The notes under the pieces are model-generated. The model searched no databases. It saw only the letters and a list, made by a program, of their open reading frames with translations, and had not been told where the DNA came from. Shown here piece by piece: positions 25,864 to 61,177 of a stretch of DNA of 64,000 nt (positions are counted from its first letter, which is position 1; every line of letters begins with the position of its first letter). The stretch is from contig CP136064.1 of the NCBI GenBank assembly GCA_032622095.1, forward strand, positions 171,066,310 to 171,130,309, in the 5' to 3' direction. Origin of the DNA: Siphonodentalium dalli. Lineage: Eukaryota; Mollusca; Scaphopoda; Gadilida; Siphonodentaliidae. The translations under genes and the position numbers were made by a program.

Positions 25864-26014
25864 CTAATAATAGAAAAAATAAGCCATGATGGATCAGAAG
25901 ATGTACATGAACTATATTCATCCGAGCTCATTGCTACGGCAACTGGCAGATCTCTGGAGGACTGATCAATTGTGCGATGCAGTCATCACTGTTGACAAAA
26001 TTATTATTGCTAAG
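25864..26014 (+). CDS. BTB gene exon 1: start codon and first part of the BTB domain (CDS from 25886)
   Basis: Acceptor ctctcttttcag ends at 25863, then 22 bases of leader and two adjacent ATGs at 25886. An in-frame TAA at 25880 lies just upstream, so 25886 is the first possible start. The 43 codons read MMDQKMYMNY, PSSLLRQLADLWRTDQLCD, then AVITVDKIIIAK, and the exon ends at AAG before gtaatt (phase 0). LxxLxxLWxxDxLCDxVIxVD is the classic start of an insect-type BTB/POZ domain, a homo- and heterodimerisation module of nuclear transcription factors. The domain continues in exon 2 as AHKLVLFAVSSKL, the conserved AHKxVLxAxS segment, which supports the join strongly. The DNA just upstream is a repeat relic. 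Confidence 0.9.
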
Positions 26015-26284
26015 GTAATTTATAAACTGGCAGGCTGGAAAATAAAATCACCAGTGTGTCCTACTCATTTTTCGAAGTTTAAGACTCAAACAGACATTTT
26101 GAGAGCTCAACATAAAGAGTATCTAACCATAGATTTTTAAAGTGTCCCAAGACATTTGCAGTGGGTACAGCTGAAAACTCATGCAAAGTTTGTTAAACTC
26201 TTATTACCAAAAAGAACAGGAAAAATAGAATGAATTTGTTCTTCTTTTAATTATCAATAATCCTCCAGTGACACGTGTCGAAAT
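26015..26284. other. Intron 1, proximal part
   Basis: Starts gtaattt. No repeats recognised until the foldback element at 26285. Confidence 0.4.
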
Positions 26285-26850
26285 AATTGCTTGTAAACAA
26301 CTACTGTGACAGTAGATAATGTCATGAATCTCTACTATGGCTACCGCTTGTAGAGATCATATTCCACCAGTACAAAACCTGTGAACTTTTTGAAGTTTGA
26401 CAGGGAACCTTATATAATCGAAAAAATAACAAAGGGAATATATTTCTTTCTTTATAATGTACATGTACTTCACTGTAGGTGAGGTCCCAACTCGTAATTT
26501 CCCGATTTAAGTGACTTTGTGAGCAATTTTGCTTTGCGTTTCTTACAATTAGGGAACTTTTCCTGGGTAATTAATTCAATGTTTATTGCGATATCGGCTC
26601 ACAAAAGTCACGGAAAAACATGCAATTTCAAGTTGGGACCTTCACATATAGTGAAGTACACTATTAAGGAACAGATAATCACTATGAAATATATTCACCG
26701 TGTTATTTTTTTGACTTTATAAGGTTCTCTGTCAAAACTTCAAAAGTTCCCAGCCTAGGTTTTGTACCGGTGGAATATGATCTCTACGGGCGTTAGCCAT
26801 AGTAGAGATTCATGGCATGATCTACTGTAACAGTACAGGTAATATCATGT
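26285..26850. mobile_element. Foldback element with long inverted arms
   Basis: The left arm (GTAGATAATGTCATGAATCT, CTACTATGGCTACCGC, GATCATATTCCACC) is mirrored on the right by GGTGGAATATGATC, GTTAGCCATAGTAGAGATTC and CATGGCATGATCTAC. A second, inner pair (GAAGTACA with ACTTCACTGTAGGTGAGGTCC) lies near 26465 and 26640. Arms are roughly 160 bp. Non-coding. Confidence 0.75.
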
Positions 26851-26957
26851 TTTCTGCAATGAAGGATAACTCTAAAATACTTATTCGTTGCAGCAATGGT
26901 TGACAATCAAATTGCTCTGCATTATTTTCTTGGTGTTGAAAACAAAAGAAAACATTA

Positions 26958-27345
26958 GGCAAAAACATATATATACCAGTGTTTCTGGTGACATGCAAGA
27001 AAAAAATAGGGGTGGGGCTATTAATTTTATTTTATTTTTCATTTTATTTTCAACTTTGCTCAAAATAAATATGAATACCACCAAGACTGCTTTTCCTTGA
27101 TTTTAATATAATACTATAAAATAAAACTAAGTACATAATATAAGAATATAGTGCAATTTATTGTTTTTTTGAATAAAACATGAAAAAATCAGTTTATTCG
27201 GCTATGACCTAATTGAAGTGTGGTATAATTTCCAGTTTAACAGTACATGTAATGTGTCTGTTTTACACGGAAATGAATCAGTTTACATTGAAAAGAAAAT
27301 CGGATGCGCACTAATTTTGCAAAATCAACAAAATGAAAATGGTCG
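26958..27345. mobile_element. Harbinger-like element copy 2 (right end missing)
   Basis: Parallels 24735-25120 through GTGTTTCTGGTGACATGCAA, GTACATAATATAAGAATATA, TTTAACAGTACATGTAATGT and CTAATTTTGCAAAATCAACA. The right TIR is not present. Confidence 0.65.
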
Positions 27346-27654
27346 GGGGGTCTTGATAGGACAGGATTTCAATAACTTCCCATTCACCTAGGGAATCCCT
27401 TGATGGTCTTTAATATTTGTGACCTATCAAGTATCAAGGTCCGGTAACATGGGTAATATCAGACAGGAAGTGATATCTAACGGAGATATTATTTTTAAAT
27501 CTATAAGCCTTTGACTTCTAAATGGCTACTGGATTCAGTTCTAAAAGTATGCAATCTAATTGTTTATTTTTCATTTGTATGGATGTTGTGATGGCATAGG
27601 GCAATGACAGATAAAGAATCATCCCAAGAATTAAATCCCTTTCACTTACATGTA
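27346..27654. other. Intron 1, unclassified
   Basis: Nothing recognised beyond ordinary AT-rich intron sequence. Confidence 0.35.
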
Positions 27655-27790
27655 AAGTAATGCCCTAAATAATCAACCCCTTAACCACAGCAGAATTATG
27701 GGTAATTTTTCAGGATTTCCGACTAAATCCTGAAAAATTACCCATAATTCTGCTGTGGTTAAGGAGTCGATTATTTAGGGCATTACTGTA
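27655..27790. mobile_element. Palindromic MITE, family A (short copy)
   Basis: GTAATGCCCTAAATAATCAA to TTATTTAGGGCATTACTGTA with a nearly perfect mirror. The central ATGGCTTGTTGCCATTC part has been lost, so the arms meet directly. Confidence 0.8.
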
Positions 27791-27858
27791 TACAAATTAA
27801 TAAATGGGAATGAAGCATCTCCTCATCAGTAGTAGATGTAAATTTATTAGATAACACA

Positions 27859-29168
27859 TTTTTACCTTGAGCGACCTATTATCAACCTCGGCTGATATCA
27901 TTCTAAACTCGGCTGATAACCCACTAAACTCGGCTGATATCAGTTGTGACATTGTGATGCGTAGCATTTACGACCAACACAACAGGCATTCTGGGGACGT
28001 GATAGTCTGATATATGATGACAATTTCTAAATTGAATTGAAGTAGTAGCTAGTGTTTCATTGCAATTTCAAACTGGTGTTTACTCCTTAATTTCAATTAA
28101 AATCATGAATATATACTTTGACATATACCTTGCGTGGTCATGAACAAAGTTACAGTTCGTTAGAATCGTTAATATCTTATTTAAGATGTAAATGTAATAA
28201 TTTATTTATATTCTACCTGCTGTCCATTCAATCTTATGTCTACAAAGATGAACTCACTACTGACATTGGAATGGATGATAATGAGGTTTATTATCTGTTT
28301 AGTTTGATATCGTCCAAGACATATCAGCCCTTGATATTAAACATATAAACCTTGGCCTTCAGTCTCAGGCTGATATGAAGTTGGCTCAGGCTGATATCTC
28401 GGCCGATATAAAACTAACCAACAAATAACCTCTATATAGTAAATACATCCATTTATAAAATTATGAGTTTACATATTTAGTGGATATTACTTGGTTAGTT
28501 TGATGGCGGCCGAGATATCAGCCTGAGGTCGAAGGTTGATATGAAGTTACCGAGGGCTGATATATCTTGGCCATTATCAAATTAACCATTTATAACCTTG
28601 TTATTAATCAGGTCTATTACACTGTAATACTACTACTAACAATTCAAATATCACTTCATCAATGCGAAGTTAAGATGTGAATGGACAACATGTAGAATTT
28701 AACTCTTTCAGTGCCAAGTCCGATTTTTGTATCAACCCATATTTCCTTGATAATTTTTCAAATTTATTGATTATAATAATGTGATACATTGATGGAAAGA
28801 GTTCTTAGATACAAAAATCGGACTTGGCACTGAAAGGGTTAAAATCACCTGTATATTTTGTCACTTTGTTTGTGTCTTGACTAGAGTAGATAATCGCGAT
28901 ACATGTTATTACATGTAACTCCATTGAAATTATCGAATAGACTTCAGGTATGAACTACTCACCATTACTTCAAGACAATTAAGAAAATCTTGTTTTAAGG
29001 AGATCACTGTAATTACGTTTGATGTATTAAACATCTCGCTTCATTTGGTAACATCACAACTTATATCAGCCGAATTTGGTGGGTTATCAGCAGAGTTTGG
29101 AGGGTTATCAGCCGAGTTTGGGCCATTATCAGCCGGATTGATAATAGTTCTCTCAGGGCAAAAATATG
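27859..29168. mobile_element. 1.3 kb TIR element with repeated CTCGGCTGATAACCC motifs in its ends
   Basis: The left end ATTTTTACCTTGAGCGACCT and TATTATCAACCTCGGCTGAT is mirrored at the right by ATCAGCCGGATTGATAATAG and TTCTCTCAGGGCAAAAAT. Each end holds three or four direct copies of an (A)CTCGGCTGATA word. More copies occur inside (28370-28580). A TTAA-type MITE is nested at 28699-28842. It ends about 65 bases before BTB exon 2. No long open frame. Confidence 0.7.
28699..28842. mobile_element. TTAA-type MITE 'TTTCAGTGCCAAGTCCGAT', short copy
   Basis: TTAACTCTTTCAGTGCCAAG at the left and CTTGGCACTGAAAGGGTTAA at the right; TTAA on both sides; 144 bp. A longer copy lies at 55534-55748. Confidence 0.8.
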
Positions 29169-29233
29169 ATATGTAATTAATAACGGTAGTCAGTATAGTA
29201 TTATCTAGCCATGCATGCTCTTATTTGTTTCAG

Positions 29234-30066
29234 GCACACAAGCTTGTTTTGTTTGCTGTCAGTTCAAAGCTAAAATCTGACTCTGCTAGCCAGTCCCACA
29301 GCGCTTTCCTGGATGTGTGTCTTCCAACTGGCCTGAGTCATAAAGCAGTTCATGCATTTCTACAGTATATGTACGAAGGCTTTCTTCTACTGACTTCTGA
29401 AATGGTGAAGGACATGATTATAATTGCTACGTATTTGGAAATTGGTAGTTTGTTACAGTGTTGCAATGATTTCGAAAAGACATTCAAAATGACTACTAAG
29501 GAGGATTCTCAGGAAAAAACACCACCTTCGGAATTCAATCATGTTAGATTGATGGAAGTGAAACAAGAGCTACCACCAAAAAGACAATCTGAAGAACCTG
29601 GTGGAGAGAGATCTCCTGCCATGCAACAAAAACGTCGTAAAATTTTGGAGTCTCGAAATCAGGAAACGACTTCTCGTCAACAAATCAATATTCATCAAAG
29701 TCCCAGAAGTAATGTATCATTCTCTAATGTTAAAAAAAATGTGTCTAGTTCAATTCCGATCCGAGCAGTTCAACATTCCAGTTCTAAACCTTCTGACAAT
29801 GGACATCGTTCTAGTGTACCTTCACAGGACGACACTGGAGGCATGGTTGATTTAACTGAATCCGGTGATGAGGATGAGTTGACTGAACCAGCCTCAATAT
29901 CACAATCTAGTCAGGACAATGCTCAAAATAGACAGACAAATCAAAGATCTCAAGACATGGATCAAGGACCTGGGAGGGGGTTTGATCAATCAACGCGTGT
30001 AGATAATGTGACCGTAAAGATTGAACGTGATGATGCTCCATTACATGGCTCTACTCCTGGGCTAAA
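29234..30066 (+). CDS. BTB gene exon 2: rest of the BTB domain plus low-complexity linker
   Basis: Acceptor tttgtttcag, then GCA CAC AAG. The exon ends CTA AA before gtatgt (phase 2), 833 bases. It supplies protein residues 44-320. Residues 44-130 complete the BTB fold (AHKLVLFAVSSKL, FLDVCLPTGLSHKAVHAFLQ, YMYEG, IIIATYLEIGSLLQCC). The rest is hydrophilic and rich in S, Q, N and D. Visible motifs: SUMO consensus VKQE (152-155) and VKIE (304-307), basic cluster QKRRK (175-179), a likely nuclear signal, and VDLT followed by acidic residues (248-260), a typical SUMO-interacting motif. The linker probably serves regulation and partner binding, not catalysis. Reading on past the donor meets a stop after four residues. 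Confidence 0.9.
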
Positions 30067-30310
30067 GTATGTAATAATTATTTAACCCTCTACTTACTAA
30101 ACGGATTCTCCCATTAAGTTATAAAAGTATACATTGGACTGGTCTATTATTCATTTGGAGGGATGCTGACAGTAACATAAGCAAATGACAGACAGATGAA
30201 AAGATAATGCAAGTGTAGAAGAGTTCATAAAATGGAAAATATTTAGACCTAGAGTCGTTTGTTGAACTTATTGTTTGGATATTTTTCCTATAAGGGAATT
30301 ACTTGTCAGT

Positions 30311-30343
<33 letters not shown>

Positions 30344-31439
30344 ATAAAACCCCATAAAAACCCTACTGATATCACTCATAGTCTACTGGAGCCTCTCCTT
30401 TTATACTAAATGGCAATCAGTCACTATGCCAGACTTGGATACTTTAGGTGTTGTGAGATCAACAGATCATCTGAGTTGAGATCTCCAAATAATTCATTGA
30501 TTAGCTTGATGCACTGATGAACGTTATTTTCTAGCCATTGATAGTCACATTAATGTTTGAGACAGCTGCTCGCTCTTTTTTCAAGCATACAGTGATCTTG
30601 GCTTAAAGGTCTTAGTTACATGAGGACAAGTTTATTTATTTCAGTTTTACATTTCTCGAAGCTTCTTTTGAAGGGTATCAGGAAGGAAGTTTTTCACCTC
30701 ACCGTCCCATATGCAACATGTCAGCTTAATGTCACCTCCACTAAGGCCCATATACGGTCCCAGTAACATAAATAAGGTGTTTTGCAGTAATAATATGTTT
30801 TAAACTGTTACAAATGTCAAATATGGACACAAAAGGTTTTAGTAAAAAATTTGCATGAGGTTGTAAAAAATGTGTTTTTGCCTCTCGGACCACCCACCCA
30901 CCCCGGCATACCTTCCTGCCTTATTTTTTATTACACCTCCTGTGTCAATGAGTATTTATTTCTCTCATTTCTCTATATATATCAGTCTTCCTGACACATA
31001 GGGAATATTCCATGTATTAGTAATCAACTCATTTAGATTACTGGACTTATAGTATGACAAAAGTAAAATTTTAGTCAGTTTGTTTCAGTTGATTTGCTGT
31101 ACACTTGGGTTAAACAATATTTCTTTCAACCATCAATTATCATGATTTACAGAGTACATATATATACACTTGTATGTCGGCAGATACAAGCATATTATCA
31201 GGGACTTCTTAAGCTAAATATTGCCGATGCAGAAGGAATTCCAATGGCAATTAATTGTCATTGCAAAATTATACTTATTACGAGGACTACAGCTTTATGT
31301 ATGTTCTCTTCTTCTTCTTCTTCCGATAAAATGCAACTCCCTGCAGAAGGCTTCTGTAGGAATATTATCGCATTTGTGCGCACAGGCGGATGAGGATGTC
31401 GTTAAAAGCTAATATTGGTGAATTTAAAATAAGGATTGT
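30067..31439. other. Intron 2, left part; no gene
   Basis: Contains a run of 31 G (30312-30342) followed by TATAAAACCCC. No other repeat or coding signal recognised. Confidence 0.5.
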
Positions 31440-34400
31440 GTATATTACAAGTAAAATCATCATGAGTGAAGTTAAAAAATCTGTCATCCTCAGCTAGCCT
31501 GTTTTGAGCATCTCCTTCTGAAAGTCTTCCAGGGAGGTGCATGCCACTGCCTCTTCAGATAGGGCGTTCCACATCCGTATGGCAGACGGAAAGAAGGAGT
31601 ATTTGTATGCATCTACTCTCACATGATGTTGTGTGTAGCGCTGGTTGTGGCCTCGTGATCTGTCGTTTGTCCTGCTCTTCACGAGTGGAGTACCTTGATT
31701 GGTGACGACCAGTCCTTTGATACACTTGAAGAACATAGACAAGGTGGCATCTTTTCGTCTTTCTTCAAGTGATTTCCATCCAAGGTTTTTCACCATCGTT
31801 TTTGGGCTGCTCCTCCAGTGGTAGTTGTTCTGGACCATTCTGGCTGCTCTCAGTTGAACTTTCTCCAGTTTCTCGATGTTTTCCGCTGTGTGTGGGTTCC
31901 ATACAGTCGATGAGTACTCTACTATTGGACGCACCATGGCATTCAGGCATTGTAACACTGCTCCTTGATGTTGGGGCTGCAGTTGGTTAGATTTCTTCCA
32001 ATGAAGGCTGTTGTAGAATTTGCCTTTTTACAGATCTTAGAAACATGGTCGTTCCAACTAACATCCTCCTTGATGTTGACACCGAGATACCTTGCAGAGT
32101 TCACACATCGTAGTGGTTTCCCATGAATGGTGTACTGGGTTTCCAAGACATTTCGTTTCCTTTTGTTTGTTATACGTATGATCTCGCATTTGTCCTCATT
32201 GAATTCCATTTGCCACTTCTTTTCCCAAAGTTGAAGGTTGTCAAGGTCTTCCTGGAGCAGTTTAGCGTCTTTTTTTGATTTTACTGTCCTGTACAGCAAT
32301 CAGTCATCTGCGAACAAGCGGGGTGTAGCTGTCACACATTTGGGAAGGTCGTTGATGTAAATAAGGAACAGTAATGGTCCCATAACTGTTCCTTGCGGTA
32401 CTCCTGATGTTACAGATGTTGCTTCGGAGAGATGACCTTCTAAGATGACTCTCTGGGTTCTGTTTGAGAGAAAATCCTTGATCCATTCCAAGATGTTGTC
32501 ATTTATGCCATGTCCTACGCACCTCTGTAGTAACCTCTGATGTGGTACCTTGTCGAATGCCTTGGAGAAGTCGTGTAGTGCAGCGTCGATCTGTTCGCCT
32601 TTAAATAGTCCTCTTGCTAAGTCATCCACCGTCAAGAGAAGTTTCACATGATCTGTTCTTTCTGAAGCCATGTTGAAAGTCTGTTAACTGGTCGTTTGAT
32701 TCCAGATAACTGATTAGATGGTGGTGAATTATATGTTCTAGAAGTTTGCTGCAGATGGATGTTAAAGATACTGGACGCCAGTTTGATGCAGATGTTTTGT
32801 CTCCTTTCTTGTACAATGGAGTAATATATGCCTCTTTCCAGTCAGTTGGTATTTTCCCTTGGTTGATTGAGGATTGAAAGAGTTTAGTCAGCATTGGTGT
32901 AATTTCGGAAGCGACTGTTTTAGTAGTCTTCCAGGAATACCGTCAGGTCCAGTGGCCTTATATATGTTGATGTTATTGAGCAATTTTAGTACTCCATTTT
33001 CGGTGACGACTATTTCGTCCACTTTATTCACCGGGATGGGCTCGACGGGTATATTTGCGGTGTCTTCTGTGGTGAATACTGATGAAAATTGCTGATTGAG
33101 TATCTCTGCCTTTGTGTTGGCGTCGCTGTATATAATTCCTCTTCTCTTCAGTGGTGACACTCCAGGACTATCATTCCTTTTACTCTTGATGTAAGTCCAT
33201 AGTCTCTTTGATGTTCTCCTTCCATCGTTTTCAGTCACTAGATCCATGATGTATTTGGACTTGGTTGCCTGGCATTGTTTGCGACTTTGATTTTTCAGTT
33301 GTTTGAAGCGTTCCCAGTCATGTTTCTTCCCTGTTTTTTTGGCTTTATTATAAGCCCGATGTTTCTTTCTTGACAGACGCTTGATTTCTCCATTAATCCA
33401 TGGTTGATGGAATCTGGTGGTACTCATTTTGGATGGTACTAGCTGGAGAAGTTTAGTGCAGATGTCTTTGAAAGCCGACCAGAGTGTTTCAATATCGTCT
33501 TTCACTGAGTAGTTGGATCTGAAATACTCTGTCTGGATCCTTGCCGCTAGAGATAACTCAGTCATGTCTGCCTTGGACCAGAGATATATCTTCCTTCTGG
33601 TTGGTGTCTTGTATTGTGCTGTGATGTTTGATGTTACAAAGACAATGTCATGATCACCTAACCCCGGAGCTGGTTTACAGAGGTTTATCAACGATGGTCT
33701 GTTGGTGAAGAAGGTGTCTAGGATGTTATTGCCTCGTGTCGACAAGGTGACGATCTGATTCATTCCACAGTCTTGCATAGTTTCGATGAAAACAGTGTTG
33801 ATGTCCTTCTGATATTGGTTTCCATCTACTGTTAGGTTTTCCCAGTTTATGTCTGGAAGGTTAGTGTCGCCTGCAATCCAGATGGTGGCATGCCTGTTTT
33901 GCTTGACTAACTTGGCTATGGCCTCACACAAGTGTTTACTGTACTCAGCATTGTCGTCTGTCGGTCTGTAAATGGAAATAACTACAAGTTCCTGTTTGTT
34001 TTTGCAACATATCTTTACTGCTGCTAACTCAAGCCTGTTATTTGTCTCTGAATTTTCTATCTGGATCTCATGGCATGGGATTAATGATTTAGTGGCAATG
34101 ATGACACCTCCATAGCCATCAGATCTGTCTTTCCTTACAGCTATGATGTAACTATCTGGCAGGACTTCTGAGCTAAAGATTCTTGGTTTTAGCCAGGTTT
34201 CCTTGCCTATGATGATATCTGGCGCTGAGCTTGACAACAGGTTTTCAAGGTCATCTCTTTTGTTCATCACACTCTGAAAATTTACCAGTTGTACTCGCAT
34301 CTCTTTTGGTATTTCAATACTGGAAGTGTTGTTATCTTTAGGTCATGAACTGAGCATTGGAGGCTCTGGGTCTTGTATATTGGGCGATTTCAATTCGCAG

Positions 34401-34630
34401 TCAAAATCATAGGAGCTCGGCCCCTGTTCTGATAGTATTGACGAAGACTGGTCGAATAGTGTCGTCGAGAACTTTGGCATTCCACACTGACAGCATATCC
34501 ATGATGTTGATGCGTTAGTGTAGACCTGATATACCGGGCTGTTCATTCCCATGCATTTCACGTGATACCAGGTGTCACAGTCATCACAGCATAGGGCTTC
34601 TTGTCCCCATTTGGTGGCTTTCTCGAAACT
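31440..34630 (-). mobile_element. CR1/Jockey-like LINE, 5'-truncated and degraded, antisense in intron 2
   Basis: Read on the minus strand: remnant of a PHD-type zinc module (34630-34343; CCDDCDTWYHVKC, WICCQCG; the first Cys pair is missing); an endonuclease frame from 34300 (ETWLKP, GDTNLPDINW, LGDHDIVF); and reverse transcriptase from about 32900 ([24 protein letters not shown], catalytic FADD near 32300). The C-terminal part is RPIVEYSSTVWNPH near 31900, and the frame ends at 31494. The RT is broken by a frame change near 32650, an in-frame TGA right after FADD near 32305, and a frame change near 31950. PHD plus apurinic endonuclease plus RT fits CR1-group or related LINEs; the clade was not tested. 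The 3' edge is approximate. Confidence 0.9.
32888..34300 (-). pseudogene. LINE endonuclease and N-terminal RT linker, open part of degraded ORF2
   Basis: A 470-codon open stretch with endonuclease/exonuclease/phosphatase-fold motifs: LVNFQSVMNK at the start, ETWLKP, the RLELAAVKICC strand, GDTNLPDINW, NILDTFFTN and GDHDIVF. It continues into the Lys/Arg-rich linker that precedes LINE reverse transcriptase (KKHRAYNKAKKTGKKHDWER) and ends near GPDGIPGRLLK. The enzyme would nick target DNA for target-primed reverse transcription. It belongs to the LINE, not to the host gene. Confidence 0.85.
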
Positions 34631-34828
34631 TATAAGCCAGTTAAATAACAATCTCAATAGATTGAAACAATTTAGTGCTAGAGGTCTACCAAATGGGCCC
34701 CAAACTAATGAAACTGAAATATAAGGAAGTTTATGGTATATGTTAGGGATTTTGATATAACCAAAACGCCTTTATCTGTGCAAAGAAGGTTAATACCAGC
34801 AAAATAAGCATGTGATATTTTATTTCAG

Positions 34829-35111
34829 ACGTGAATATGACGAAGGTGCTCAACAGATAAAACCCGAACCCGGTGAAGAAGATTACACAATTGAAGAAGC
34901 AGACCCCTCCCAGTTTGCTGCAGATTGGTACGGTGATGACTCGTCAGCGTCAAACCAGTTTGACCAATCAGGTCAAGGACCTCAAATGGGCAGGGATTGG
35001 CAGTCCATGTCTTATTCCGAACCAAATATGCAGCCTCCAACAGATGGAGGAGAAGCTCAGAACATGACATTCGACATGGGTATGGTGGGGCCATCAGGTG
35101 GGAGTCAAGAG
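34829..35111 (+). CDS. BTB gene exon 3: acidic, SUMO-motif linker
   Basis: Acceptor ttttatttcag at 34828; the first base completes the Lys codon split with exon 2. It encodes REYDEGAQQ, then IKPEPGEEDY (SUMO consensus IKPE at residues 331-334), an acidic tract, then a Met/Gly/Gln/Pro-rich region ending GPSGGSQE. It ends GAG before gtaggt (phase 0). No folded domain recognised; the composition suggests a disordered activation or adaptor segment (inference). Phase 0 lets it join terminal exons a, c and d in frame, but not b. Only the frame is visible, not expression. Confidence 0.85.
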
Positions 35112-35165
35112 GTAGGTTATTTTCTTTCTTTGCCCATTTTCAAAATGGCATTCAACAGTGGAAGC

Positions 35166-38934: not shown

Positions 38935-38940
38935 TTTCAG

Positions 38941-46690: not shown

Positions 46691-46694
46691 TGAA

Positions 46695-47118: not shown

Positions 47119-49349
47119 CATGAAAAAAATAGATTGACTTGGTTCTTATTTTCATTATTAATAACTCTCCAATAATGAAATTTTGCATGTCAAAACCATT
47201 GTTTATTAAATGTAAACATTGTTACAGAAGAATTAAATTCATATTAGTCCAATAAGATACCAAAGCTTAATAAAAACTTGACGGTAATCATTGGAAAAGG
47301 TCAAAGCATTGACAAAATATTCTTAAAATATTATTCAGACTGAAATATTAGAGGATATTGCATGATTAGCGATTATTTTGCAAATTTATCTACTGTGAGT
47401 GCATTGGGTTCCTTTAAATCATTGTAGTGCCTGGCAGGGATTTGTGAGTATTGCTGACTTGCATGGTTCAATCGGCCAACCTCGGTGATTTCCGTATGCA
47501 AATAATACTGTTTCTGCCAAGTATGATAATCCGTGAAGTTGCGATTGTTGCATGGTTCATAATCATAGGTCATGTATTGTAGGCTACAAACAACTAATTA
47601 TTTTCCATAGGCGATCAACAGTGTTAACTGTAAGTCCCGCCGGAGATGGGTTAAGCCTAGTTGAAATTTTTGTTTAATCTGTCACTTCATGCACCATTTG
47701 GTGACAACAAATGCGCCTTTTCTATATCTTTTTAAAACTAAAATCTTGTGTTTCTACAACTACCCCATTTACTGCATAAATATATGCAGCATAAATATAC
47801 CCAGACCCCTTCCATAACTTTGAGACCCCACCAGACTCTTCCTGGCCATCTAAAAAAAAATGATCACCCTATTTATGATTTTCTGTTCCCGCTCAGTGAA
47901 TTTTCCCTCAAAGATCAACCAATCATCAGCCATAATTTAATAAAAATGCGGAGTCCAGTTTCCCTACACAAATCCAAGAAGCATTACTCTATATAATTAG
48001 TCACTTGTAACCTGTAGTGACAGTAAGCCAAATGTATCTGCACTATCCTTTCTCAAGGTTATGTATCTCCATGTATGATAGTCGAATAAGGGGTTTGTTG
48101 GGGTTTATAAATGTACATGTTAGATGCTGACAGGTACATGTACTAGCAAAGCTGGGCTGGTTCATTGATCATGTATTGCAGCATAAAGTAACAGTGAGCA
48201 AAGGTATTGCTTCTAACTCATAAATAATATTGTGTATCTCGGTCTGTATGTTGCCATAGCAACTTTACATGTATCGGTGTTACTTCTGACAAGGATAGTG
48301 TTAACAATCCCAGCATTACTTGTACGTCCTTTGTATTATCATAATTTATACCAACAGTTTCCGCTTGTCAGGTTCCTCTGAATATGTACATGTATCACCA
48401 TTTCTCGCCGTAGCAACTCACCCTTTGTTGCCATAACATCTAAGAGGGATATGTGGGCTATGCCATGCAGCCAGGTTCTAAAGCTGTGTGTAAAATCATA
48501 GCAACAATAACAAAATGTATCTGTGTTAGCTCATGCAGTGGTTGATATTATTACAGTTGTAGGCCAAGGTTTATGTGCATTTATCAGTGGAAATTTATTT
48601 CCAATAACTATTATATTATGGTTTGTTGTAGTTCTATAGTATACCTGATTTAATTCCCCACACAACCAGATGAATAGACACCATACTGCTGATGTCCACT
48701 TTGTTTTGCTTTTGTGATCAATTATAGTTGTGCTGTACTATTTGTGGAGGCATGGGTAATGACTCCCATGTTCAATCAATGTATGTTTTTCTTCTTCTTC
48801 TGTCCACAATATTCCACCACTCTGACTCTGCGAATCACTTTGAACTTGCAGAACGCCGTGTGTTGTTGTGAAATACAACATGCAATTTTGCATGAATCGC
48901 ATGACTCGATCTTAGAGAATAAATATTATTTGATACCTTGCTGGGCTGATCGTGCGACAAAATGTGGTACAATTTTCCACCGATATTTGTCGTACTACAT
49001 GTATCGCACCCAAAGCCAGAATAAGTGAAGTGTCTCTCTGCTAGCCTAGTTCCTCAATTCATTTAACACCATCTTTATTTTTTCTTTTTAAAATATGAAT
49101 GTCCATAGCAACATGCAGGCAAAAACATGTGAACTTTGTTTGACTGGTAAATAGATAGTAGGTTGTATCATACTAATAGCAAGAAACATGTATCAGTGAC
49201 CACTCTTGATAGGTTGTTTATCTCGATGTTCCACTACAGTGGCTCTGCATATATATCACCATAGCAATTGACCACAATATGTGACCTGAGACACCCTACT
49301 TGATGTGTCATGTGTCATCAGGGATATCGTCAATTGGCTTTTAACTATA
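47119..49349. repeat. Decayed dispersed repeat in intron 3, no gene
   Basis: ACATGTATCACCATAGCAAC-like words recur about every 150-300 bases (48090, 48260, 48395, 48990, 49255) with flanking TGTATCTC and GTTACTTCTGAC words. This looks like an old tandem or dispersed repeat. No terminal structure or coding domain. Confidence 0.4.
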
Positions 49350-51815: not shown

Positions 51816-52094
51816 ATGATTGGCTGTGATCAATGTGGGCGGAGTTATGCAACACGGTCAGGTTTCAACCACCATATAAAAAGATATCACAGGCCCGGTT
51901 GTTATAAGTGCCAGGAATGTGGAAAAAGTTTTGTTACAATCTATGAACATAAGAGACATTTGGCGTCACATTCGAATGAATTCCCTTTCCATTGTGAGGA
52001 TTGTGGTATGCAGTTTCGTTCATCAAACAGTTTGGGACAACACAAGAAGAACAAGCACGCCACTAACACTATGGACTGTCCTACTAGTATGTGA
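51816..52094 (+). CDS. BTB gene alternative terminal exon a: three C2H2 zinc fingers
   Basis: Acceptor ctgtcacttcag at 51815, phase 0, so it joins exon 3 directly. Its 92 codons hold three canonical C2H2 fingers: CDQCGRSY...HIKRYH, CQECGKSF...RHLASH and CEDCGMQF...QHKKNKH, each C-x2-C-x12-H-x3/4-H. A short tail ending DCPTSM and TGA at 52092 follow. C2H2 arrays of this kind bind DNA in BTB-ZF transcription factors. The exon starts with an ATG, but the acceptor and the BTB exons upstream argue for an internal Met. An in-UTR gtaagt at about 52207 is not needed by the model. Likely product: a 507-residue nuclear BTB-ZF isoform. Confidence 0.87.
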   Translation: MIGCDQCGRSYATRSGFNHHIKRYHRPGCYKCQECGKSFVTIYEHKRHLASHSNEFPFHCEDCGMQFRSSNSLGQHKKNKHATNTMDCPTSM

Positions 52095-52776: not shown

Positions 52777-53623
52777 TTCTAATTGGATTTAGTGTTGGCC
52801 TGAGGTTTTTTCAACATTGGATAAAATTTGTGATCTTATCGCAACTGTAACTGTTTCCTGAAGGCCATCGCACACTTTAGCAATAAAACAGGCCCATGTA
52901 TGCCCTTTACACACATTTTGATCTTATAAAGAGCCTTTATTCAGCGACGGCCCCTTTGCTTTAATCGTTTAAATATTTGGATTAAAAAAAAAAATAATTA
53001 AATTAAATTATTTTTTTTTATTTGAGTGCCTTGCTCAATTTAATTAAATCTGTTTTAATCAAATATATGAAAATCTAATGCCGTTATAACATCCGCCAGG
53101 GCACCCCAAATCACCACACCTTTGTTGAAGTTGGTCCAGGGGAGTGGGAGAAAAATCAGAACAGACAGATATAGACTGTGATAGACAGACAGAACCTATT
53201 CTTTTAGATTTATATATATATATGATATATTTATATAGAACATATTAAAAAATTCAATAGCTATTAAAAAGGCCATGATGTGCAGAAACTGATATAGCTC
53301 TGTACGTAATTGTGAAATAAACCATGAACGAATACCTTTCATAATTTTTAAACTATTCAATTCTTCATGTCTGCAGTCACTTATCACAGAGGATAAATTT
53401 TTTTTTTTCAATAACATGTTCATACACATGTATATAGATATTCTCTTTAAATTAACATCTTCGTCAGGTTCAAAATATATTTTGATTCTTGTACCTGATG
53501 AAGGCTGTACAGCCGAAAGCTTGTAAATATTGATGGTTCTTAATACGCTGACTGCACGCTCCCATTCAATTACTTGTAAAACGTATCTTGTAGTCGGCAA
53601 TCAATGTGTTAGAAGGTGTTTAT
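52777..53623. other. No gene recognised
   Basis: AT-rich tracts near 52980-53060. The minus-strand frame at 53196-53600 (134 codons, including YKLSAVQPSSG) does not match a family I can name with confidence. It may be part of an unidentified repeat. Confidence 0.35.
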
Positions 53624-55177
53624 TTAAGGGTATCCTAAACGTGACAGAGTTGAAATTTCTTCCAATATGGCCGAATTTTTTTAGATTAATGAGCTCTAAT
53701 TCACAATAAGGTTTGCAAAATGGCCACAATGAACCAATACAATATTCTAATCATAAAACATAGATCATTTTGAAATATAAAATGTTGTCCCATCTTACAG
53801 GAATCTATATAAAAAAAATTATGAAACAATTGTTGTTTTCAAATTTACACTTTCTTACAGAACTGATATCTGTAAAATTACTGCATGTTTTTAGTATAAT
53901 AGTTTACCGATATGTGCTATGATATTCCAATATATTGAGAGGGACCTTGCTTTTTCGTTATAATATTTCTTGGATTCACTCTTTAAATAATTTTTGTCTT
54001 TAAACATGGCAAAACACTTGAATATGCATTAGACTGACATCCTAAAACACGGTATTCATATATAAACAGAATTTATTAAATAATGTGGCTATATATCAAG
54101 TATTATTTTGTTAGAGGGTAGAGATTCCCGGTCTTTCCCCAACTCTATTTTTTGTGTCGCACGCGTTTCCCTTTTTGGAGAGGTTTGCAGATGCAAACTA
54201 TTCTTATTAAAATCAATCAAAACAAGGTTACACGCATAATACACAGCGGAAATAATCCACAACATCTGTAATCCATGCAGGTATAGATAACTGCGCAATC
54301 GGTCATCCAAGTTAATTTTTAGGGCTGTTGTATTGTTTGATCAACTTTCTCTGAAAATCAAAAACATGTCGAATCTCGTTTTGGTTTCGGTTTGATGGAT
54401 GACTAAATGTGTTCAAAATATTTTTAAAAACAATATTAGGGTTAATTAAACTAAGTATTTCAAATTACAATATATGCTAGCTTACTAGTGTTGTTTTCAA
54501 CTGTCTGGGGTAATTTATGTTACAAAATCTCTGAAGTATGAATGTATGCCAGGCCATTTGTGTCAAAATGCACCAGTATCACAAAAATATGATTCATCTG
54601 ATATCATAGGTAATGTTGAAAATATAGCTTACAGTGTCATTTTTTGCTAAATATGTTAGAAAGTATCAATTGTGCATGAGGTATTTGTGAAATAGGGGCA
54701 AAATAGACAGCCTTATACATCCTTATGATCCAGCTCACATAATTGCCAACTTGGCTTCCCATACCAAAAAATAGTCCCAAAAAGCAAATGGCCACATAAT
54801 TGTGTTCAACTGATGGAGGGTGCCTTCAACTCAATGGATTTGTAGCTAAAACAGTGAGTTATTTTATAAAATGACGGTCCCTCTCCTCATCCTGGAATCC
54901 TAATCTATAAGATGCCACAATAATTATATTTGTTTGCTTTATTAGTTTTGACTTCTGGTGATTGGCATAATTTCACTCACTTTCCAGTTAATTTTCTCAA
55001 TCAAATATATCTTTTAAAAATATGGATGTGATGTCAAAAAATTGTTCAATCATATTCCTATATCCTTGTGATATTTCATGTCAATTGGAAACATAGTCTT
55101 GCAATGGCTGGCATTTATCGGAGAGAGGGGTATAAAAACTCATTCGGCCATCTTTGTCAGGTTTAGGATACCCTTAA
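53624..55177. mobile_element. 1.55 kb TTAA-flanked TIR element (piggyBac-like, non-autonomous)
   Basis: TTAAGGGTATCCTAAACGTG at the left and GGTTTAGGATACCCTTAA at the right are inverted ends with exact TTAA flanks. TGACA / TGTCA continue the TIR. Frames inside are short and show no transposase motif. Confidence 0.78.
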
Positions 55178-55533
55178 AGATAATACATTGTATCTATTAC
55201 TCAGACACATACAGTTTCAGAGAATTTTCTACAAAATCTTTATAAAAAAGGATATTCCTCTATGGACTGTTGGCAATGGAAATAATTGAACAATTAGCGC
55301 TGTAACGTTGAATTGACACCTTAAATTTGGGATGGTTACCATAGAAACTATGGAAATGATGATTAGCTATATAGTGTCAAATTAGATTGTTTGGCTTTAA
55401 AGACTAGACACATATTTTGTAAGAACTGCAAGACATTTTCACACAAGAATTTCTTTGGACGTATTTATTGAAAACTCTAGAATTTCACATATTATCATTG
55501 TCATTGCATCGAGAAACTGAGGAACAGTTATTA
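55178..55533. other. Intron, no feature recognised
   Basis: Nothing recognised. Confidence 0.3.
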
Positions 55534-55748
55534 TTAACCCTTTCAGTGCCAAGTCCAATTTTTGTATCAACCCATATTTCCTTGATCATTTTTCAAATTT
55601 ATTGATTATAATAATGTGATACATTGATGGAAAGAGCTCTTGGAGCTCTTTCCATCAATGTATCACATTAATATAATCAATAAATTTGAAAAATGATCAA
55701 GGAAATATGGGTTGATACAAAAATCGCACTTGGCACTGAAAGGGTTAA
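55534..55748. mobile_element. TTAA-type MITE 'TTTCAGTGCCAAGTCC', longer copy
   Basis: TTAACCCTTTCAGTGCCAAG at the left and CTTGGCACTGAAAGGGTTAA at the right; TTAA on both sides. The arms pair over nearly their whole length (centre GAGCTCTTGGAGCTC). Confidence 0.85.
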
Positions 55749-55828
55749 GAGAAGGCTAATAATGGATTGCAAACTTTCATGGTATTTCAAATAACATTTA
55801 TTTACAAGTGATTTGTTTTTTTCTCCAG

Positions 55829-56243
55829 TGCATTCCTGTGTCAGTTTTGTGGACTAGATCTCGCCAATCAATCTGCTCTGCGACAACATGAAGGACGCCA
55901 TACAATGACGGCTCCATGGCAATGCCAAAAATGTGGGACACAGTTCTATAGTTCTACCTGGAATGAGAGACATAACTGTACTAAGAGCAAACAATTAAAA
56001 TTTCGATGCAAAAATTGCAGTGCATCTTTTATATGCCAATACGATTTAAAAAGACATCAAAGAAGAGAGAGACGAGAATTCCAGTTCAAATGTGAAAGTT
56101 GTCCTGCAAAATTTGAGCGTATGTGTGACTTGAAGGATCACGAAGGAAAACATACTGGTGAAACTCGGCATCGTTGTCCAGATTGTGGGAAAAATTTCCG
56201 TTTCCGGAGTGGTCTTTGCAGACATACAAAATTAGCTCACTGA
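55829..56243 (+). CDS. BTB gene alternative terminal exon b: five zinc-finger modules
   Basis: Acceptor ttttttctccag at 55828. One base then completes a split codon, so the exon enters in phase 2. It therefore fits exon 2 (phase 2), not exon 3. It encodes AFLCQFCGLDLANQSALRQH and on. Modules: CQFC..HEGRH (complete), CQKC..RHNC (final ligand unusual), CKNC..RHQRRER (last His missing), CESC..DHEGKH followed by a TGE linker (complete) and CPDC..RHTKLAH (complete). TGA at 56241. A start at the internal ATG 55905 is possible but would discard the first finger. Predicted role: DNA-binding end of a 458-residue isoform lacking exon 3. Confidence 0.85.
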
Positions 56244-56499
56244 CTTGCTCTCTGTATTTGGTGTAGTTGTTGAGGAGTTTTGTTTTCATGAACTAACAGA
56301 TTTGGATTAGATTTTATTTTGATAGAAGCCTTTATAAGTTATATCTCTGAAATCATGGGCCATATTTTAGCTTATATCCTTTTATTAAAGTTTAACACAT
56401 GTGATCATTAAAGGTACTGATTTCCTGTGGTGCACTGTGGTGGAAGAGGAAAAGTCCAAAGTTCTACTCAGTTTGCCACAGATCACTTGTGGGCATACA
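56244..56499 (+). other. Probable 3' UTR of exon b
   Basis: Follows the stop of exon b. An ATTAAA at about 56384 could serve as a variant poly(A) signal; no stronger signal seen. Confidence 0.35.
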
Positions 56500-56865
56500 T
56501 TAATTTAGCACAGTGGGCTAGCATCACCAAATTCACCCTCTGGGGAACTCATTCTGTATGGCCTCATCTGCTATGGGAGACATAGACTCAGATTGAAGTT
56601 CCCAAATGGTGAATATTGTGATATACACCCATTGGGAACCTCTATTATGCAATGTATTGTGTGCCAATTGGGAATATTGAGAAACTAAACTAAAAAAAGA
56701 AATAGAAATTTGAAAATAAAGAAACTTTCCAGAGAAGATGAGGCCTAAGCAGACTGAGGTCCCCAAAGTGTGAATTTAGTGATGCAAGCCCACTATGTGG
56801 GATAGCGTCACTAAATTCACCCTCTCGGGACCTCATTCCGCAAATGACAGGCACCTTATTCTCAG
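56500..56865. mobile_element. Family B hairpin element (left end missing)
   Basis: CAGTGGGCTAGCATCACCAA, a diverged middle, then the right arm AGACTGAGGTCCCCAAAGTG to TTCCGCAAATGACAGGCACC. Confidence 0.65.
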
Positions 56866-57127
56866 GCCTGGTTCCCTAAGGTCAGTGAGAGAAGCTTCTT
56901 TCATCAGACTGTTTCTGCGTATCATGACCTTATTGAATGAAGTTCACCAACTCCTGGCAAATCTTAAAAATATTGGATTCATTGGAAAGCTGGAGCCATT
57001 AATATCTAATGCAAGCCCTAGATTATCGGTCAAGATACAGTAGGTGCAAAACAACACTTCCTGGTTTTGAAGACAATATAAGGTTTCATTTTTTGGTGAG
57101 TTTCATAAGGATTCATCTCAAGTTGAA
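56866..57127. other. No feature recognised
   Basis: Nothing recognised. Confidence 0.3.
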
Positions 57128-57585
57128 TTTAAAGATGTATTATCGCTACAAAATTACTATTTCTTTGGCTTCCGGGGTAAAAAATATTTGATTCAAGTCG
57201 AGGAACCCACCCATCAAAGCTCAGAGTGATCAGATATCAATTTTTCTATTTCTCGAGATGTGCAATTATTTGTGGCCCAGAAAAACATCGTCAAACTGAC
57301 CGCTCTCGCACAAAAGTGCCGATGAAGTTAGATACATGTAACTCTAAAATCAAGTGGTAATATGGGCAAATTTTGGGATACTCAAGTGATAATACGGCCA
57401 TATTTCATTGAACAAAATGTTGATAAATAACACGTTTTGGGAAATTTGATAGTTAATTGTTGACAGCGTTTAGCATTATTTTGTTGCAATTAATCGATTC
57501 TGATAACTAAAGCGTATTTTGAAGAAATGTTGTTGTTGTATCTTGATGATATGGTGATCGTCTGATCGGATTGAGTACCTTTAAT
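57128..57585. mobile_element. TIR element, family C copy 3
   Basis: TTAAAGATGTATTATCGCTA, TTTGGCTTCCGGGGTAAAAA, CCCATCAAAGCTCAGAGTGA, and the right end GATCGGATTGAGTACCTTTAA-type terminus. Central words are shared with copy 2. Confidence 0.75.
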
Positions 57586-57636
57586 TTTGTTTTTAGAATT
57601 ATTTTATTCAGCTGAAAAACATCATCTATTTAGACC

Positions 57637-58582
57637 CAGTGTTCGCGCTGTCGGTAGCCAAATTAGCCAATGGCCAATCTTTTTCGAATTTGGCTAATAA
57701 AAATTTCATTTGGCTAAACTTTTGGCTAAACTTTTTTTTACCCCAAATGGAAACGGAAAGCATGGAGTCGGAAAGCTAATTAATAAAAGCGCTCAATAGA
57801 TCGACATTCAAGACGAAGTTAGGTGGCGAAAGTATTTCGTACTTATGAAATATCGTTCTGTAACGGTGGCGTTGATTGAACAACGGGGACATTACACAAC
57901 TGTTTGACATCTGATAAGTATTTTTGTTTTGTAACATTTAACCAGCCTAATCGTCAAAACGCATAAGCTGTTTACTGGTTATGTAACTGATTAAGCCGTC
58001 TGTAAGATTAAATACCTAAATGCTTTGTTAATTAGAGAAGAGCAGTTCTTAACTCAATGGTTACGTAATGTGTATCATAAAGTGCATCCCGTCCAATAAC
58101 CTGGCTTCACAGTTAACACCTTACTATAATAAGCAATAGTTAGGGGCCGTCATGCCATGGTGTCAATAGTGTCAACGACATAGAGTTATTACAATTAGTT
58201 TTGCGGATTTATGTGATTATAATTATATAGAATGTTAGTTTCATGTTTGCGAATTGGTATGGTCCGATGTGAAATCCCGCCGTATTCTATATTAATGTTT
58301 TATGAATTTATCTGCCTGTGTGATATGATGCATACATATGTTCGTATAATATTGTTTTTAAAGTTGTTTTTGTGTTGTTTTAATTATGTTTTTATTCTGA
58401 GTAACAAATAAAGTTTAAAACATATATTTTAGTCATTAATTGTGAACCGCCCAGAAAATGAGGATTTAATTTGGCCAAATTTTGTTTTAATTTGGCCAAA
58501 AAACATTTGGCTAAAGATTTTTTCATTTGGCTAATAAAATTTTCATTTGGCTAAAAGATTTTTTGGTCCAGCGCGAACACTG
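57637..58582. mobile_element. hAT-like non-autonomous element, exact 8-bp TSD
   Basis: TIRs CAGTGTTCGCGCTG and CAGCGCGAACACTG are a perfect 14-bp pair. TTTAGACC flanks both (57629-57636 and 58583-58590). Subterminal TTTGGCTAA words repeat at both ends. 946 bp, no transposase. TIR start and TSD length match hAT. Confidence 0.88.
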
Positions 58583-58590
58583 TTTAGACC

Positions 58591-58811
58591 CCTGAATTAT
58601 TACCCTTTGAATTTCAATACTACCTATACTGTATTTCCAAACAAGTTCTAGTTTACTATGAATGTAGGTCAGTGGCATCAAGTCATTTGAATTTCCATCT
58701 GTGAGAAGCTAATCACATTTCTGTGAGTAAAGGTGGGAAAATTTGTCTCATGCTTCAGCACCATCTAAAAGGAGTTAATTCCAATTAGTTTTTCGTATGT
58801 TCTACTTTCAG
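58591..58811. other. Intron end before exon c
   Basis: Plain sequence ending in acceptor ttctactttcag (58811). A second AG five bases downstream (58816) would give phase 2 instead of 0. Confidence 0.5.
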
Positions 58812-59129
58812 TACAGAAAGACAGGAAGAGCTGTTTACTTGAACACCTTACTTCGCTGGCCGATCAGAAGTGGTCTGCAATACAAACCTGAGATCATAAA
58901 TGGCAAAGAATTAGTTACCAAAGTGTGGTGCAAAACTTGTGCTAAATTTTTTGATAGAATTATCAAAGATAGCCGAGTCAACCTAAAGATGTGTGCAGAC
59001 ATTAATTCATTTGTGAAAGGGACGAATCATTGTCAGAAATCTAACTTGGATCGTCATTTTGCCACTCAAGCACATTTAATTGGAGTTGAGATCGCAAAAG
59101 AGAGTGGTTATATTACAGAGGATTTTTAA
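58812..59129 (+). CDS. BTB gene alternative terminal exon c: long-loop CCHH zinc-binding domain
   Basis: Enters in phase 0 (joins exon 3); 105 codons, stop TAA at 59127. It reads YRKTGRAVYLNTLLRWPI, then GLQYKPE, VTKVWCKTCAKFF, a 38-residue loop, and DRHFATQAHLIGVEI. The spacing C-x2-C-x38-H-x5-H suggests one zinc site closed by a long loop. It is clearly homologous to exon d: both share GRxVxLxTLxRWP, a TKVWCKxC core, a GT turn and HxxxxxHxIGxE. It is not a standard C2H2 finger. A BED- or TTF-like zinc fold is my best guess. The long open frame, matching splice phase and paralogy to exon d make it a real exon. Role inferred: alternative DNA- or protein-binding end of the BTB protein. Confidence 0.82.
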   Translation, partial: YRKTGRAVYLNTLLRWPIRSGLQYKPEIINGKELVTKVWCKTCAKFFDRIIKDSRVNLKMCADINSFVKGTNHCQKSNLDRHFATQAHLIGVEIAKESGYITEDF

Positions 59130-59163
59130 ATTGCTCCAATCTTATTCTGATTTTACTGTTCGG

Positions 59164-59632
59164 TTAACCCTTTATTTTCTAAATACTCATTGACAAGCAG
59201 TTCTCTTGGGAAATGTTCAAATAACATTAAAGTTCAACTAACTGAAGATTTTCCACCAATGATCAGGAATCCTTCTGCACTGGTGTTATACAGTAATGCT
59301 TTAAATAATCGTCTCCTTAATTAACCATAGCAGAATTATGGGCAATTTTTCAGGATTTAGCGAGAAATATGGCTTTATGCCATTCATCGGAAAGCTCTCA
59401 GTGAGAGTTTTCCGATGAATGGCAACAAGCCATATTTCCGATTAATCCTGAAAAATTACCCATAATTCTGCTGTGGTTAAGGAGTCGATTATTTAGGGCA
59501 TTACTGTATGTTCATCTGTCTGTTGCCTGCTTCTATTTCCTGAACATCTATCCAGATGAATAACAGACCATTAATTCCAATGTATACTTTCTGTAACTGA
59601 TGGGAGAATCCATTTAGTGATGAAAGGGTTAA
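59164..59632. mobile_element. TTAA-type element interrupted by a family A MITE
   Basis: TTAACCCTTTATTTTCTAAA at the left and TTTAGTGATGAAAGGGTTAA at the right. The family A MITE lies at 59289-59509, flanked by TA. The right TTAA is shared with the next element. Confidence 0.65.
59289..59509. mobile_element. Palindromic MITE, family A, nested copy
   Basis: ACAGTAATGCTTTAAATAAT to TTATTTAGGGCATTACTGTA, full length, with the CATCGGAAAGCTCTCAGTGA centre. Confidence 0.85.
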
Positions 59633-59722
59633 CCCTTTGGCGACTAGAACAACATACATGTATATGTCACTGTACGGTTTCGCGAGTGGAACGACATACA
59701 TGTATATGTCGTTTCAGGAAGT
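59629..59722. mobile_element. TTAA-type element end with two subterminal palindromes
   Basis: TTAACCCTTTGGCGACTAGA, then CATACATGTATATGTC, about 20 bases of spacer (GTACGGTTTCGCG) and ACGACATACATGTATATGTC. The second has 8-bp arms ACGACATA / TATGTCGT. The right terminus is not identified. Confidence 0.6.
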
Positions 59723-60089
59723 GTCATTTTTATGTAGACATAACTTCAATTAATCATTTGATTTATAAATGTATAGGAAATATTTTGATTAAGTTTCCCA
59801 ATGTATAAGTGCAATAGATTATGATAGCACATATAAACAGAAGATACACATCAATTAAAACGAATATTGGACCCTTTTGACCCAAATTTGTTAATAATTA
59901 TTGCTATGACAGACATTAAACTCACGCAATTTACATTATGGGAGGCTGTTTTCACTTGCACTATAACTCTGATTAACTCAATTTGAGTACAATTGAAATG
60001 CACATAACCTCTTTGCTGTTGATTGATATCTTAACATCTTGTGATAGGCCATTGATGTTATGGTCATTTTCCATTGGTTAAATATAATA
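59723..60089. other. No feature recognised
   Basis: May be the remainder of the element that starts at 59629. No right end is visible. Confidence 0.3.
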
Positions 60090-60356
60090 TTAACCTCTTC
60101 GCTACTATGACGTCCGTAACTATTACGGATGTAAAAGTGCATGTCGTGTGCTATATGGTACTTAGTTACTACGGACCTACTTCAGCCCACTAGCAGTAGG
60201 CCATTACTCATAACTGATGTTTCATGATTGTGAACCATAATAGCCTTTCAACTGAGTCAGTATTATGGTTCTTGTGATATTCCCGTTATATTTTTCCACT
60301 GGAAAATGGCAATAACGTCAACAGCCCAGCATACGACGGCAATTAGCAGCGAAGAA
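60090..60356. mobile_element. TTAA-type MITE with TCCGTAA palindrome
   Basis: TTAACCTCTTCGCTACTATG at the left and TTAGCAGCGAAGA at the right (right TTAA lost). The subterminal palindrome TCCGTAACTATTACGGA is followed by a weaker half-copy. The body is shared with 50407-50718. Confidence 0.7.
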
Positions 60357-60496
60357 TATCATATTGGTAGTCGGGAGTAGGGGGAGGGGGCATGGCTGCT
60401 CACCATATAGTCTTTCTCCACACCATAGGTTTCTCCCAGTCATGGCTAAGGTATGAATGTATGTAGTTATTCTGAGGTGTGAATAAATAAGGAGTA

Positions 60497-60661
60497 TACA
60501 GTAATGCCCTAAAAAAATATGGCTTGTTGCCATTCATCGGAAAGCTCTCAGTGAGAGCTTTCTGATGAATGGCAACAAACCATATTTTACAACTAAATCC
60601 TGAAAAATTACCCATAATTCTTCTGTGGTAAAGGAGTCGATTATTTAGGGCATTACTGTAC
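60497..60661. mobile_element. Palindromic MITE, family A (left arm shortened)
   Basis: ACAGTAATGCCCTAAAAAAA jumps to ATGGCTTGTTGCCATTCATC; the right arm is complete to GGGCATTACTGTA. It lies within 200 bases of exon d. Confidence 0.78.
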
Positions 60662-60853
60662 CATGCGGGGCGATATCTGTCATGTCACACTCCGTCTCTT
60701 ACTTCTGAAAGTTGGAGGAGTCTTAAAATTTGTGGCTCTTGTTATGTCACAATATGACCATAGCTGTTGGGAGTGACATTAAACCCCAATCAACTAACTA
60801 AATCATAATTATAGCATCTTCAATGGTGTCTGAATGGAGTGATTTTATTTCAG

Positions 60854-61177
60854 AATCGGCAGCAACCCCAAGTTCAAGGTCGAACGGTCTGTCTGTCGAC
60901 TCTGAAACGCTGGCCAGTCAGTGATATTCTCGGATATAAAACAGAAACGGATTCAGTAGGGAGAGAGATAGTAACTAAAGTATGGTGCAAAATTTGTTCA
61001 GAAAATTCAGCTGCAATTTTTAGATGTACCCAAATGAAAGGACGAACATGCATAAGAGAGAAAGAACCTTATATGATTGGAACAAAGGTGGTAGCAAAAC
61101 ACGCAGTGGAGCAACATATCATATCAAGAATTCACAGGATTGGACAGGAACTTGTTAGAGATAATTGGAAGCAATAA
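60854..61177 (+). CDS. BTB gene alternative terminal exon d: long-loop CCHH domain, paralog of exon c
   Basis: Acceptor attttatttcag at 60853, phase 0; 107 codons, stop TAA at 61175. It begins NRQQPQVQGRTVCLSTLKRW, then GYKTE, EIVTKVWCKICS, a 39-residue loop, and EQHIISRIHRIGQEL. The zinc ligands read C-x2-C-x39-H-x5-H. It aligns with exon c along its length, so the pair arose by exon duplication, but the loop has diverged. A second AG (60862) would remove three residues without changing the frame. Product inferred: a 522-residue BTB isoform. Further such exons could lie past the window end. Confidence 0.82.
   Translation, partial: NRQQPQVQGRTVCLSTLKRWPVSDILGYKTETDSVGREIVTKVWCKICSENSAAIFRCTQMKGRTCIREKEPYMIGTKVVAKHAVEQHIISRIHRIGQELVRDNWKQ

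Follow-up and report, generated by a model that had tools for sequence, protein, structure and literature searches.

Architecture of the BTB locus

The window analysed here is a 64,000-nucleotide (nt) stretch of the Siphonodentalium dalli genome (C4:171066310-171130309; the assembly comprises 2.23 Gb in nine contigs). It holds the three common exons of a gene for a BTB-domain protein (e1 to e3), followed on the same strand by exons that encode zinc-binding modules. These terminal exons, labelled a to n, extend past the end of the window, and its numbering is continued for them.

25864..26014, + strand: common exon e1, with the end of the 5' untranslated region, the ATG at 25886 and the first 43 amino acids (aa) of the BTB protein; phase-0 donor (splice sites, frame)
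29234..30066, + strand: common exon e2, with the bulk of the BTB domain and a polar linker; donor leaves 2 nt (splice sites, frame, Pfam BTB)
34829..35111, + strand: common exon e3, an acidic linker of 283 nt; phase-0 donor (splice sites, frame)
51816..52094, + strand: terminal exon a, three C2H2 fingers, own stop, phase 0 (splice sites, frame, Pfam; two relatives at a sister locus)
55829..56243, + strand: terminal exon b, five C2H2 stretches (Pfam), own stop, enters after 2 nt (splice sites, frame, Pfam)
58812..59129, + strand: terminal exon c, long-loop CCHH module, own stop, phase 0 (splice sites, frame, CCHH pattern)
60854..61177, + strand: terminal exon d, long-loop CCHH module, own stop, phase 0 (splice sites, frame, CCHH pattern, genome relatives)
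Starts 65917 and 70818, + strand: terminal exons e and f, CCHH module
Starts 72344, 75859, 81654 and 84698, + strand: terminal exons g, h, i and j, C2H2 above the Pfam cut-off
Starts 87462, 96124, 105545 and 133958, + strand: terminal exons k, l, m and n, C2H2 above the Pfam cut-off

The seven exons inside the window had been placed by a preliminary description, and all were found at the same coordinates with AG and GT splice sites. All seven acceptors end in CAG, and all three donors begin with GT. Each of the four joined frames is open: e1-e2-e3-a translates to 507 aa, e1-e2-b to 458 aa, e1-e2-e3-c to 520 aa and e1-e2-e3-d to 522 aa, none with an internal stop. In joined e1 and e2, Pfam BTB was detected above its cut-off (E = 3.2e-13). 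The e1-e2 joint is independently backed by a BTB paralogue at C4:236451647, where e1 and e2 are fused in frame at exactly this point. This paralogue (L038, C4:236450900-236453899) is a case of intron loss, and its frame ends at the donor-like TAGTAAGT. Genome searches gave 28 matches for e1 and 28 for e2, each including the query itself. For e3 the single other match is the sister locus described below, with equal length (283 nt) and an equal donor.

Downstream sequence was read for 200 kb and scanned by zinc pattern for open reading frames (ORFs) of at least 60 aa downstream of the window, or at least 45 aa at the sister locus. The preliminary description had counted at least four terminal exons and asked for a search past position 64000; this search added ten (e to n, 65.9-134.2 kb; L009-L016), raising the count to at least 14. 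These 14 zinc-binding exons occupy 82 kb, all lie on the + strand, and each has its own stop. C2H2 fingers exceed the Pfam cut-off in exons a, b and g to n, and the CCHH pattern is present in exons c to f. Exons c and d reached no cut-off in the Pfam search.

Entry in phase 0 was found for 13 of the 14 exons, taking as acceptor the clean site nearest the motif with the better pyrimidine tract. The sole exception is b, whose phase matches the donor of e2 and not that of e3. The phases first read for the four exons in the window (a, c and d in phase 0, b after 2 nt and fitting e2) were confirmed. When the 14 frames are taken from stop to stop, nine of them (those of b, d, e, f, g, h, i, k and l) have no ATG ahead of the first zinc ligand, so an upstream exon is needed for these.

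A sister locus with the same order

A sister locus lies 0.5 Mb upstream, starting at C4:170594800 (C4:170.59-170.65 Mb). It contains e1', e2' and e3' with matching donor phases, followed in the examined sequence by ten terminal exons, all in phase 0 and all on the + strand. Their order is two C2H2 exons (a-type, including a1 and a2), six CCHH exons (p1 to p6) and two C2H2 exons. At both loci together, 24 of 24 array exons share the strand of the BTB exons. Beyond the sister array, a genome search revealed eight further short zinc ORFs on the same strand, up to 170770816, among the matches listed. When ORFs of the two downstream regions were compared, matches outside the zinc exons were for the most part repeat-like with multiple hits, a few being single and faint. 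In intron 1 of the sister locus, a - strand ORF was dropped for want of a credible finger.

The common exons of the sister genes are close. Exons e1 and e2 (window 25886-30064 against L030:1603-5006) share 93-96% DNA identity, and synonymous divergence (dS) is 0.18 in e1, 0.17 in e2 (0.02 in codons 160-240) and 0.29 in e3. In introns 1 and 2, similarity is confined to a single 50-bp piece and hits of chance size. About 1.2 kb of tandem-repeat sequence is common to both copies of intron 3 and is present elsewhere nearby too. The combination of close common exons and unalignable introns 1 and 2 suggests gene conversion limited to exons, which would account for it.

Intron 2 of the window contains, on the - strand (31494-34771), a non-long-terminal-repeat retrotransposon whose PHD finger, endonuclease and reverse-transcriptase pieces are spread over several frames. 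A run of about 30 G residues lies at 30312-30342 in the same intron.

The array exons are much more diverged between the loci than the common exons. Nonsynonymous divergence (dN) and dS were 0.264 and 0.741 for the pair d-e, 0.237 and 0.645 for a1-a2, 0.205 and 0.451 for q1-q2, and 0.482 and 1.391 for p5-p6; in other pairs dS exceeded 1.7 or was undefined. In the exon pairs with unsaturated dS, dN was below dS.

Zinc exons lie behind other BTB genes

Linkage across the genome was assessed with relatives of exons q1, i, m and a1. Relatives in ORFs of at most 165 aa were placed against the 28 e2 matches and called linked if they lay on the same strand within 200 kb downstream of one, a criterion with a chance fraction of 0.13%. 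For each query the best 150 candidates were scored, so the counts here and below are samples, among the matches listed. Linked rows made up 14 of 16 for q1, 15 of 22 for i, 2 of 11 for m and 7 of the 16 listed for a1. As distinct places, 34 of 61 were linked to BTB exons, against 0.13% by chance. The two focal loci account for 18 of them, counting the four queries, and the remaining 16 are spread over seven other BTB loci as follows.

C6:208.97 Mb: 7 linked places
C4:236.45 Mb: 3 linked places
C6:167.50 Mb: 2 linked places
C6:59.49, C6:59.66, C6:198.88 and C6:207.08 Mb: one linked place each

No row was found downstream of e2 matches on the opposite strand, and some linked rows are at the same time upstream of an adjacent BTB gene. 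Longer ORFs retrieved with q1 and i, mostly ordinary zinc-finger genes, were linked in 2 of 131 cases.

At six other BTB loci, exon starts (not exon ends) were examined for 14 of the 16 linked places, and all 14 have a phase-0 acceptor. Overall, 37 of 38 exons at eight loci start in phase 0. With p = 1/2 the probability of this result is 1.4e-10, assuming an independence that tandem copies violate.

The stretch C6:209045883-209118014 comprises at least seven short zinc ORFs behind one BTB gene. Three of the seven share the acceptor context cgcttcag|TTCCCC, and this array may be young.

The CCHH module is shared with transposase-like ORFs

The preliminary description had distinguished two kinds of ends, C2H2 and long-loop CCHH. 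This division was borne out, and the CCHH kind was also found at the N terminus of dispersed transposase-like ORFs. The module consists of W-C-x2-C, a long loop and H-x5-H, with an N-terminal LxTLxRW-like stretch. It is carried by exons c to f here and by the six sister exons p1 to p6, and it heads many ORFs of about 790-860 aa dispersed in the genome. Two of these ORFs were tested for the C-terminal hAT dimerisation region: L033 scored 20.8 bits against a cut-off of 21.4 (E = 3.4e-4), and L032 gave no hit. In the one element tested for its ends, L033, 16-nt inverted repeats (94%) flank the ORF and a 6-bp direct repeat lies just outside them. The target-site duplication of most hAT elements is 8 bp. 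The dispersed CCHH-bearing ORFs are likely hAT-like transposases, judging from these features.

In a tree of 26 CCHH modules, a branch with support of 93/88, short of firm, separates the ten array exons from the other 16. Five of 31 rows had been excluded from it: L053 and L056 (long joint branch), L054 (a fragment), and L044 and L055 (near-copies). In the 31-row tree, L053 and L056 fall inside the array group on a branch of 2.6. The topology fits a single gain of the CCHH module followed by tandem duplication. Capture from transposon to host would be the simplest reading of the transfer, a direction that we infer. All ten CCHH exons of the two loci lack internal stops in own-genome protein searches that read through stops. 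Another BTB paralogue has a CCHH module (L034) 47 kb downstream, which was considered as a further array and rejected, as it groups with a transposon copy at 98/98.

The curated cut-off of Pfam zf-C17orf113 was not reached (15.6 bits for exon c against 29.5; 17.7 for L032), and matches to this family occurred in 3 of 11 CCHH modules at E up to 0.1, the best being 0.001. A profile of 11 CCHH modules found no convincing relative among solved structures, with one hit at E = 0.47. Structure prediction of exon d with exon c was uninformative (mean predicted local distance difference test score 48.4).

Surroundings of the gene

The next BTB gene downstream has its e1 near 177514 and its e2 near 197430, with a six-finger exon in phase 0 at 224682. 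The remaining finger-like ORFs behind it in the examined stretch are one of 65 aa at 237232 (- strand, outside the array, with one C2H2-like motif) and a loose match at 256359. Loose ORF matches with no credible finger were dropped, at 120841 (+ strand) within the array stretch and, outside it, at 48835 (- strand), 137937, 182172 (- strand), 184652 (- strand), 214216 and 256359.

Ahead of e1, window positions 3771-11774 form an array 8 kb long, in which a 30-bp unit is repeated about 276 times. Its - strand contains long open stretches, including one frame of 2483 codons that includes N. The openness of these frames is probably due to the unit length being a multiple of three.

Interpretation and alternatives

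We interpret the locus as a single BTB transcription-factor gene, in which three common 5' exons are followed on the same strand by an array of 14 or more terminal exons, each an alternative to the others, and put the probability of this reading at roughly 0.8. The phase-0 donor at 35111 would be joined to one array exon per transcript, and exon b would be joined from the e2 donor at 30066 with e3 skipped. The resulting isoforms would have a self-associating BTB domain in common and differ in their DNA-binding end. The arrays would grow by tandem duplication, and one sub-family of ends (c to f, and p1 to p6 at the sister locus) would have gained its transposase-type zinc module most simply by capture. 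The preliminary description had likened the locus to insect lola and broad, and this likeness is supported by the added downstream exons, by a sister locus of equal order and by zinc exons behind seven other BTB paralogues.

Several observations weigh against such a gene. Other-phase AGs lie close to several exons, and the phase count depends on the choice of acceptor. Exon b misfits the e3 donor, and the introns would be long (17-99 kb). For exon m, the linked rows are the query and its neighbour l only. With the sister locus as the single other e3 match in the genome, we found no donor at the remaining BTB loci that could supply the zinc exons. Exons a and j have an ATG directly after the acceptor and could start proteins of their own, and no BTB exon is near 27 of the 61 short-ORF places.

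The last two points also favour an alternative in which each array exon is the 3' exon of a small zinc-finger gene of its own, with its own first exon, such genes being clustered behind the BTB gene by chance. Tandem zinc-finger gene clusters are common in animals. We nevertheless consider this explanation unlikely. Separate genes would not be expected to share phase 0 at 37 of 38 starts across eight loci, nor to lack an ATG before the first ligand in 9 of 14 frames. An array stands behind BTB exons at two sister loci, seven more BTB loci are followed by similar exons, and none of the downstream rows is on the opposite strand. Outside the zinc exons, the two downstream regions match each other faintly or in what look to be dispersed repeats, which also speaks against separate genes.

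Alternatively, the terminal exons could have their own promoters and be attached to the BTB exons through trans-splicing, the situation described for Drosophila mod(mdg4). That gene has an equal design of common exons and many 3' exons, and the available parts of PMC12692577 and PMC1947980 describe all mod(mdg4) messenger RNAs and some lola messenger RNAs as trans-spliced. This explanation seems to us quite unlikely, since mod(mdg4) exons are described there on both strands, all 24 array exons here lie on the BTB strand, and cis-splicing suffices.

It is very unlikely that the array is a decayed set of functionless duplicated terminal exons, perhaps spread by transposon activity: the CCHH module is common to transposase-like ORFs, the BTB-linked L034 is a transposon fragment and a scan for open frames would miss decayed copies, but the ten CCHH exons are free of stops even when searches read through them, and dN/dS is well below 1 in pairs with unsaturated dS.

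Switching of the DNA-binding end by terminal-exon choice is known from a few insect genes, and its presence in several members of another BTB family would point to repeated origin. A wider proposal, for which we see an even chance, is that up to 28 BTB loci with a BTB domain not of the TTK type independently evolved lola-like arrays of ends by tandem duplication and uptake of zinc modules of the transposase type. Exons e1 to e3 of the sister genes would meanwhile have remained similar (dS 0.17-0.29), although introns 1 and 2 can no longer be aligned. On this proposal the genome would hold a large switchable set of regulators on one dimerisation platform. The pair of sister arrays, separated by 0.5 Mb, would also allow the birth and loss of alternative DNA-binding ends, and their kinship with transposons, to be traced within one genome. 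Among the titles and starts of abstracts listed from an open-access library, a scope outside which most subscription papers and all bioRxiv preprints fall, we found no report of such arrays in molluscs or lophotrochozoans.

Comparison with known systems

The best matches of the BTB domain to solved structures included a ZBTB17-BCL6 chain (E = 9.4e-14), BACH1 (8e-9) and also Kelch-like 26 (6.5e-9). CG6765, the fly BTB protein whose structure from cryo-electron microscopy is given in PMC11426971, was a weaker match (1.2e-4). ZBTB17 (Miz-1), BACH and BCL6 thus provide BTB domains among the best solved matches, but they are vertebrate proteins, and we know of no zinc-finger terminal-exon array in them. 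The FxLRWN motif is absent from the e1-e2-e3 translation. TTK-type BTB domains, including that of lola, carry N-terminal FxLRWN and, in the available part of PMC11426971, are reported as not found outside arthropods. By its sequence, the BTB domain here is ZBTB17/BACH-like and not TTK-type. Since it lacks FxLRWN and is closest to ZBTB17 and BACH1, the gene would be lola-like in working but is not a lola orthologue.

Drosophila lola yields at least 20 isoforms, each with a BTB common part and one of about 20 terminal exons, most of them C2H2 or C2HC, according to the available text of PMC1947980. Common BTB exons combined with one of many zinc-finger terminal exons are the point of likeness, the joining here being deduced from DNA: same-phase zinc exons with their own stops (14 exons, 13 in phase 0) stand behind common BTB exons. 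In contrast to lola, the BTB domain here is without FxLRWN, one group of ends is a transposase-type CCHH module, and eight more BTB paralogues, namely the sister locus and seven others, are followed by similar zinc exons.

Drosophila mod(mdg4) likewise combines BTB common exons with more than 30 alternative 3' exons and makes its isoforms by trans-splicing, in the account available from PMC12692577. Its terminal exons are described as lying on both strands, whereas none of the 24 found here departs from the coding strand.

Domesticated hAT elements such as CGGBP, and host-transposase fusions, resemble the present case in placing a DNA-transposon module in a host regulator (PMC8097297, PMC10027918, as far as these sources are available). 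In those transposase-derived factors, as described there, the module is one fixed fusion, whereas here it would serve as several alternative ends beside C2H2 ends.

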